Source: Trichococcus palustris
GTDB lineage: Bacteria; Bacillota; Bacilli; Lactobacillales; Aerococcaceae
NCBI RefSeq assembly: GCF_900114465.1
Contig: NZ_FOTD01000003.1
Span: forward strand, 1 to 64,000
Length of the DNA: 64,000 bases
Direction: 5' to 3'
Shown in pieces: positions 25,166 through 25,857 of the stretch. The notes under the pieces were generated by a model that was not told the origin of the DNA, did not search any database, and saw only the letters and a list, made by a program, of their open reading frames with translations. The translations under genes were made by a program, and so were the position numbers. Numbering within the stretch: the first letter of the stretch is position 1; each line of letters begins with the position of its first letter.

Positions 25166-25182
25166 ATAGTTGAATTCTGAGA

Positions 25183-25219
25183 AGTTTCCTTGAGATGAAA
25201 ATCCTAGGAGGCTTTTTTT
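25183..25219 (+). terminator. Terminator of coaD operon
   Basis: AGTTTCCT pairs with AGGAGGCT (two G-U pairs) over a 15-base loop and runs into seven T residues. Confidence 0.6.
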
Positions 25220-25245
25220 GCTTATAGGAATTTATAAAATATTTT
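25218..25245 (+). promoter_or_regulatory. Weak candidate promoter for the structured segment
   Basis: TTGCTT, 16 bp, TATTTT. It is the best -35/-10 pair between the coaD terminator and the structured segment, but both boxes are imperfect. Confidence 0.3.
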
Positions 25246-25442
25246 AATCTCAGTAGTGCATCACCGGAGGTGTTTCACACATTTGTAAAATGTTCCACGT
25301 ATCAAAAGGGTTGGCTAGCTTCACGGGTTAGCCCTTCGGAAAAGGGATTAAGGGTCCTCTTGGCTCTACGAGCCAAGACATACTGTTCGACTTGTCATGG
25401 TTCTTGTCATCTTTGCTATCTAAAGAAGATTCCAAGAAGCAC

Positions 25443-25500
25443 CTCAAACGTCGCACTGTGACGTTTGAGTAACTGACCGGTACGGTCACGTTGATTCCTT
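25443..25500 (+). repeat. Two-hairpin module, copy 1
   Basis: Stem 1 is CTCAAACGTC/GACGTTTGAG with loop GCACTGT. One T separates it from stem 2, AAC-TGACC-ggtac-GGTCA-C-GTT, which has a bulged C. GATTCCTT follows. Compare copy 2 at 25700. Confidence 0.8.
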
Positions 25501-25699
25501 TATTTTTGGAAGTCTCTCAGCAATTGCGCTCTACGATGCTCATTTGCATGGGACTCTTAGGGATTCATCCCTTAGAGCCCCAGTATAAGGTGAACGTAGG
25601 GGAAGTTGCAGGGCACGATTTCCTAAATTGTCATGATTCTTGCGATTTCAATCGCTTAGTCCTGTCAACTGGATATCCAAAATATATAGCAGTAAGGCC

Positions 25700-25756
25700 C
25701 TCTGATGTCGCACTGTGACATCAGAGTACTTGACCGACTAGGTCACAGTGTTTCCT
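25700..25756 (+). repeat. Two-hairpin module, copy 2
   Basis: Stem 1 is CTCTGATGTC/GACATCAGAG with the identical loop GCACTGT. One T, then ACT-TGACC-gacta-GGTCA-C-AGT with the same bulged C, then GTTTCCTT. The stems differ from copy 1 by paired substitutions. Confidence 0.8.
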
Positions 25757-25762
25757 TAATCA

Positions 25763-25790
25763 GGGCTGAACGAACCCGTTCAGCTTTTCT
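25763..25790 (+). terminator. Terminator at the end of the structured segment
   Basis: GCTGAACG-aacc-CGTTCAGC followed by TTTTCTT. It lies about 70 bp upstream of the comEA start and could end an independent RNA or act as an attenuator. Confidence 0.75.
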
Positions 25791-25857
25791 TGCTTCCGTA
25801 AATGAAATCATCCGATTATGGCGTATTTTAGAGATAGGTGCAGAAAGGGGTGATGGT

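Follow-up and report, generated by a model that had tools for sequence, protein, structure and literature searches.

Two hairpin copies between coaD and comEA lie within one larger element

The DNA between coaD and comEA in Trichococcus palustris contains two hairpin structures whose stems differ by paired substitutions, and this raises the question of whether the locus carries a structured RNA tied to its neighbouring genes or a structure of another kind. We analysed it within a stretch of 64,000 nt (contig NZ_FOTD01000003.1, positions 1 to 64,000), hereafter called the window. The first-pass annotation had described the two copies and their compensated stem changes, and both were borne out by direct reading and by a mechanical repeat search. 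The latter returned a single family of direct repeats (25417-25503 and 25674-25760, 70% identity) and inverted repeats beginning at 25443 and 25700. As annotated, stem 1 differs between the first copy (CTCAAACGTC/GACGTTTGAG, 25443-25469) and the second (CTCTGATGTC/GACATCAGAG, 25700-25726), with the loop GCACTGT in both, while stem 2 changes in a compensated manner from AAC-TGACC/GGTCA-c-GTT (25471-25492) to ACT-TGACC/GGTCA-c-AGT (25728-25749), with conservation of the bulged C. The recurrence of TTGTCATG-R-TTCTTG upstream of each copy was also confirmed (at 25392 and 25628); the second of these TTGTCATG motifs is the start of a hairpin that is present complete in other copies of the element, and both are altered in the window copy. 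Among the loci that we collected, the loop motif GTCGCACTGTGAC had 13 distinct contexts; the stems around it were of two main types, besides some rarer forms (the stem was unformed in 1 of the 13), indicating that the hairpin types are not unique to the window locus.

A 576-nt region folded better than shuffled sequence (z -7.5; 0/100 shuffles). The annotation could not match the structure to a known class, and a scan of the region with cmscan against Rfam 15, at gathering thresholds and up to E 10, likewise gave nothing relevant. Elsewhere in the window, a lysine riboswitch (RF00168, E 4e-17) is present at 367-523.

The annotated region is real, but its limits (25250-25790) were too narrow. 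Alignment of copies placed the whole element at 25220-25791, the ends being approximate to the base, and the arms of this larger element carry the two hairpin copies as optional modules. Its parts are as follows, all on the + strand.

25181..25219, +: weak stem-loop and T-run following coaD; this is the upstream terminator preceding the element start (sequence; cross-copy terminator counts; sister coaD terminators)
25220..25791, +: complete element of 572 nt; the genome has about 40 such places (own-genome alignments; ends from copy alignment)
25220..25312, +: 5' domain (TATAGGAATTTATAAA ... CATCACC-GGTG ...), common to many Trichococcus copies (62 copies lined up, a few of them mis-anchored)
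25317..25335, +: 5' arm of the long closing stem P1, type A, AGCTTCACGGGTT-AGCCCT (three covarying types across copies)
25357..25377, +: hairpin of the inner 5' module, CTCTTGGCTC/GAGCCAAG (fold and alignment)
25392..25498, +: module with the first hairpin copy, comprising the TTGTCATG start, hairpin 25443-25469 and stem 2 25471-25492 (sequence, repeat search)
25508..25659, +: common core block, with hairpin 25550-25581 and stem GGAAGTCT/AGATTTCC (own-genome recurrence)
25628..25749, +: 3' module with the second hairpin copy, comprising the TTGTCATG start, hairpin 25700-25726 and stem 2 25728-25749 (sequence, repeat search)
25762..25785, +: 3' arm of P1, AGGGCT-gaacg-AACCCGT-TC-AGCT (sequence, cross-copy arm patterns)
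25765..25791, +: predicted local terminator-like hairpin GCTGAACG/CGTTCAGC with TTTTCTT (sequence and fold)

The 3' arm of P1 and the local terminator-like hairpin overlap at 25765-25784. At the place of the module at 25392..25498, many other copies have only a short stretch. The 152 nt of the core block recur at 95-96% identity in five copies of the same genome and at lower identity elsewhere; the core hairpin was found in 35 distinct forms, with both compensated and uncompensated variation. The module at 25628..25749 also has a two-hairpin relative in Pisciglobus halotolerans. The window copy has no long reading frame (the longest listed inside it has 75 aa), and its 5' end shows a conserved TATAAA-like stretch but, by eye, no convincing promoter hexamer pair.

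The element is dispersed and is missing from the same site in sister species

A search of the T. palustris genome with 551 bases of the element gave 80 aligned pieces, which manual grouping reduced to about 40 places, including several fragments (loci L009-L047, of which L016 contains two). Copies of the element are cut by the ends of contigs C5 and C14 of this assembly, so that the copy number is probably undercounted. At the DNA level, the element was present in 13/13 genomes of the genus, in none of 12 from the other genera of the family and in a single genome (G025) among 16 sampled elsewhere in the order; the covariance model described below later found it in two more genera of the family (g9, g12). 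Searching with a 21-nt pattern taken from one hairpin retrieved 48 stretches, mostly from Trichococcus species, with 9 from Pisciglobus halotolerans; the remaining matches were two labelled Sedimentibacter, one Rhizobium and one Bradyrhizobium. The last two stand without the surrounding module and look like chance matches. The record MUZD01000003.1 (L176), labelled Sedimentibacter sp. SX930, is probably mislabelled and a genome of the window's genus. P. halotolerans has mosaic repeats of its own (L134, L143, L149, L154, L163, L181), in which the two-hairpin TTGTCATG module is embedded in other blocks; L149 additionally carries a ACTGTTCGACTAA...GCAGGAAGTCTC core. No match was found in plasmid and phage collections with either the window element or the enterococcus-like unit (see below), nor in viral contigs with two exact patterns.

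The gap between coaD and comEA measures 704 nt in the window versus 168-180 nt in the sister species. The element is missing there in 12/12 of them, and the empty gap contains the coaD terminator. Filled and empty sites were also compared among three sister genomes, G006, G012 and G002, seven of the sites in detail: G012 alone is empty at sites 13, 16 and 21, G006 alone is filled at site 24, and G002 is empty at sites 12, 22 and 23. Other sites vary in length, and some lack a matching flank. The junctions showed T-rich microhomology and small replaced stretches, and no constant target duplication was seen at the seven filled/empty sites read.

Copies are assembled stepwise around a closing stem of exchangeable sequence

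Three parts make up the minimal unit of about 126 nt: the two arms of P1; the inner stem (P1c/P2), whose apical loop is strongly conserved; and, on the 3' side, a hairpin with TTTTC. In Trichococcus, many copies also carry the 5' domain (about 90 nt), whose start follows the T-run of a terminator belonging to another gene; no such domain was found ahead of the enterococcus-like units examined. Optional hairpin modules lengthen the element stepwise: P1-to-P1 spans range from 113 to 522 nt, with clusters near 122-124, 188, 250, 320, 385 and 442 nt, and of the two annotated hairpin modules many copies carry just one or none at all.

Leaving out the Pisciglobus loci and 5' arms of no type, 117 P1 5' arms fitted a type, and in 4 of these the 3' arm was not found by pattern. 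The types of the two arms agreed in all 113 copies in which both were found (87 A, 24 B, 2 C); since this count includes orthologous copies, the underlying events are fewer than the copies. Site 21 has P1 of type B in G006 and of type A in G002. Arm pairs are thus swapped together, even at one site between two species, implying that the palindrome is kept and not its sequence.

Copies frequently lie behind transcription terminators

A same-strand terminator-like hairpin followed by a T-run preceded 56 of the 92 copies with enough flank, and was not found upstream of the other 36. Such signals were less frequent upstream on the other strand (33/92, terminator hairpins being palindromic), downstream on the same strand (11/92) and downstream on the opposite strand (6/92). 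Among the 56 upstream signals, 35 lay 91-110 nt before P1. By eye, the terminator hairpin was plain at five of the seven detailed sites (13, 16, 22, 23 and 24), where it was whole in the filled genome, and no clear one was seen at sites 12 and 21. Trichococcus copies themselves end in a terminator-like hairpin of their own.

In G006, where gene context was taken from simple ORF calls with approximate ends, 17/39 copies had the upstream gene directed toward the element and the downstream gene pointing back. The downstream gene was on the opposite strand in 28/39; for 17 of these, that gene ended at most about 13 nt from the matched end. The window copy sits between two co-directional genes. Across Trichococcus we saw no common downstream gene, and copies were found behind unrelated genes.

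A related family extends across the order

A covariance model (R1), built from 34 minimal units, matched 95/395 genomes and 19 of the 80 sampled genera of the order at E 1e-4, under strict filters and with 8 candidates scored per genome. It gave 15 matches in the window genome and 7 to 37 in each of the twelve others of the genus. A model is thereby available for a structured repeat family that had no Rfam 15 match in the loci scanned.

In an enterococcus-like genus (genomes of 3.1-4.6 Mb), 22/22 genomes matched R1, with 1 to 122 matches each, and the units are often arranged head-to-tail with a period of 121-122 nt. Among 36 arrays fetched, 31 had a ribosome-binding motif at most 32 nt from their end; some of these arrays are orthologous. 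A stretch like GTACAAGGTGAAGCGAAGCGGAACGTTGTTACC, which resembles the Trichococcus core CAGTACAAGGTGACCGTAGGGAACGTTGC, recurs before several of the arrays (L303, L308, L312, L315).

In a streptococcus-like genus, 26/39 genomes matched at E 1e-3. The 36 loci examined in this genus included 6 behind what is presumably carA (with carB beyond 4 of these), 5 in what we take to be the PDH operon and 12 directly before a gene that we take to be dnaJ, the gene names being assigned from recall; the latter was translated in one locus and its start was seen in all 12. The element ended close before this start codon in L333, L344, L345 and nine more loci, and two compensated P1/P2 types alternated at this site, in 5 and 7 loci. 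Copies occupied the same operon sites in several species. The Rfam SpF14 sRNA (RF02429) was found at L344 547-665, about 840 nt upstream of the dnaJ-side element. The accessible portion of the literature, in which few subscription papers were covered, contained no description of the element in Trichococcus or across the order (including the parts seen of PMC2229807, PMC3733652 and PMC2267715).

Stems covary but lack a preference for G.U pairs

Homologues with compensatory changes are present in relatives. In alignment A2 (89 distinct rows, of which 70 enterococcus-like, 12 from Trichococcus and 7 others), 91.3% of cells pair and 25/32 pairs change on both sides; the covariation score was 0.442, versus 0.172 (sd 0.006) after shuffling and at most 0.129 after sliding. 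Alignment A3 (34 distinct rows, streptococcus-like) scored 0.318 versus 0.104 for shuffled rows. One of five measures, further pair types, was not above shuffles in A3 (32 versus 30.4, 155/500). Both alignments, having been fitted to the model, are biased in its favour.

The deviations from Watson-Crick pairing were then counted as G.U and A.C. In A2 these were 27 and 41, respectively; after removal of three weak P1 pairs the enterococcus-like rows kept 24 and 27, Trichococcus 0 and 1 and the others 1 and 1. The Trichococcus copies had 7 G.U and 8 A.C in P1, and 6 and 7 in the core hairpin. P2 of 36 minimal units had 2 G.U and 22 A.C (2 and 6 over 18 distinct arm pairs). As a control, the acceptor and T stems of 31 out of 37 tRNAs from the same loci had 38 G.U and 0 A.C, a comparison in which six tRNAs failed the pairing filter and the register was picked for best pairing, which lowers A.C and favours paired stems. 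In the streptococcus-like genus, 645/646 inner-stem cells were Watson-Crick, with one G.U, too few deviations to decide.

As A.C is as common as G.U, versus 0 to 38 in tRNAs, the stems do not show the wobble tolerance of working RNAs. This favours DNA-level palindromes, or master copies followed by neutral decay, which fit better than individually selected RNA, though the G.U/A.C result can also reflect neutral decay of single copies. The paired substitutions had been read as evidence of selection on an RNA or a DNA cruciform structure; pairing is indeed real and covarying, but preference for RNA over a DNA palindrome is not upheld by stems that lack a tRNA-like excess of G.U. Covarying structure within one genome can stem from a spreading DNA element, not a riboswitch.

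A mobile origin and its alternatives

Taken together, these data make it likely that the element is a miniature, non-autonomous, modular mobile element, working like EFAR of Enterococcus faecalis. The enzyme that moves it would belong to the host or to an IS, act in trans and recognise the hairpins of the element in the form of folded DNA. Terminator hairpins may be favoured targets, where insertion would do little harm, and the new terminator-like hairpin brought by each copy would re-create its own target; a target of this kind would explain the head-to-tail arrays in enterococcus-like genomes. Several observations argue against a mobile element: the copies at the same streptococcus-like operon sites in several species look like retention for function, 36/92 copies have no upstream terminator signal, 2/7 detailed sites have no clear hairpin, and there is no constant target duplication.

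Two candidate mobilisers were considered. Reverse transcriptase was found in 6/13 genomes of the genus and none in the window's own, and is not supported in this role. A Y1 transposase is present in 12/13, but the ends of four Y1-transposase loci were unlike those of the element, with only 13-23 nt matches among the matches listed, and this candidate is not supported either. The terminator preference and the stepwise assembly nevertheless make the element a clear system in which to seek the mobilising enzyme.

BIMEs are enterobacterial elements that act in mRNA stability and processing. Copies of mobile origin might similarly have been retained at mRNA 3' ends or between cistrons, an explanation that overlaps with the mobile element and does not exclude it. 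It agrees with the position of copies at 3' ends and between co-directional genes, and with the orthologous operon sites of the streptococcus-like genomes; against this, presence varies between close relatives at several sites, and we consider such retention possible but doubtful. More tentatively still, and as a rather unlikely proposal, the order Lactobacillales may hold a modular folding family that Rfam 15 lacks. Its members would move, re-creating their own terminator target, and would also have been adopted repeatedly as a structured mRNA element with a terminator-versus-P1 switch, e.g., before dnaJ and inside streptococcal car/pdh operons.

A cis-regulatory RNA (an attenuator or leader) would exploit the bases shared by the 3' hairpin and P1 (25765-25784), whose folding could turn termination on or off or uncover the ribosome site of the gene that follows. 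The ribosome-binding motifs behind the enterococcus-like arrays, the car, PDH and dnaJ sites and the nearly perfect inner stems of the streptococcus-like copies are in line with this. Yet Trichococcus copies share no downstream gene, the next gene is on the other strand in most G006 copies, sister species lack the element at the window site and the stems show no G.U preference, which makes this explanation improbable. Much less probable again is the tandem aptamer tied to coaD or comEA that the first-pass annotation had brought up: two similar hairpin modules in one strongly folding element do recall it, but these modules are optional and many copies have neither or one, the element is dispersed behind unrelated genes and unfixed at the window site, Rfam gave no match, and Trichococcus shows no stable link to a gene function of the kind expected for a riboswitch, the streptococcus-like operon sites being the exception. 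A group IIC intron remnant is just as hard to credit: such introns also insert behind terminators, but no Rfam intron matched the region up to E 10 and reverse transcriptase is limited to 6/13 genomes.

Comparison with known elements

Coming back to the mobile element, its closest parallels are with hairpin-bearing repeats of other bacteria. In miniature elements derived from IS200/IS605 and in REPs, hairpins serve as signals and no target duplication is expected. The present element would share both properties, but differs in that the ends of the four resident Y1-transposase loci do not match its own. BOX elements of Streptococcus pneumoniae are dispersed, hairpin-forming and modular. So is the present element, but its long closing stem and its modules are not known to be part of BOX.

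BOX elements are also listed in PMC2267715, which describes Efa-1 as an intergenic element of 163 bp, in 65 copies (18), formed by a pair of adjacent stem-loops. Efa-1 has an L shape; the present element has a P1-closed unit, a 5' domain and modules. It was compared with the descriptions of Efa-1 and of EFAR. The present element differs from both by its occurrence in Trichococcus and across the order, with documented P1 types and stepwise lengths.

EFAR, which Venditti et al. are said to have described in 2007, are reportedly miniature insertion sequences of E. faecalis of 42-650 bp, assembled from 16 sequence types. They are also said to be small, intergenic, foldable mosaics that integrated at stem-loops, the target stem-loop being then largely deleted. 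A similar variable assembly and size range were found here (spans of 113-522 nt plus the 5' domain; 572 nt for the window copy), as was integration at stem-loop sites (an upstream hairpin in 56/92 copies and at 5/7 detailed sites). EFAR, however, reportedly remove the greater part of the target stem-loop on insertion; the hairpins upstream of the present element are, by eye, whole at sites 13, 16, 22, 23 and 24. Because the target hairpin is kept whole at these sites, we do not file the element as an EFAR, but only as one that works like EFAR.
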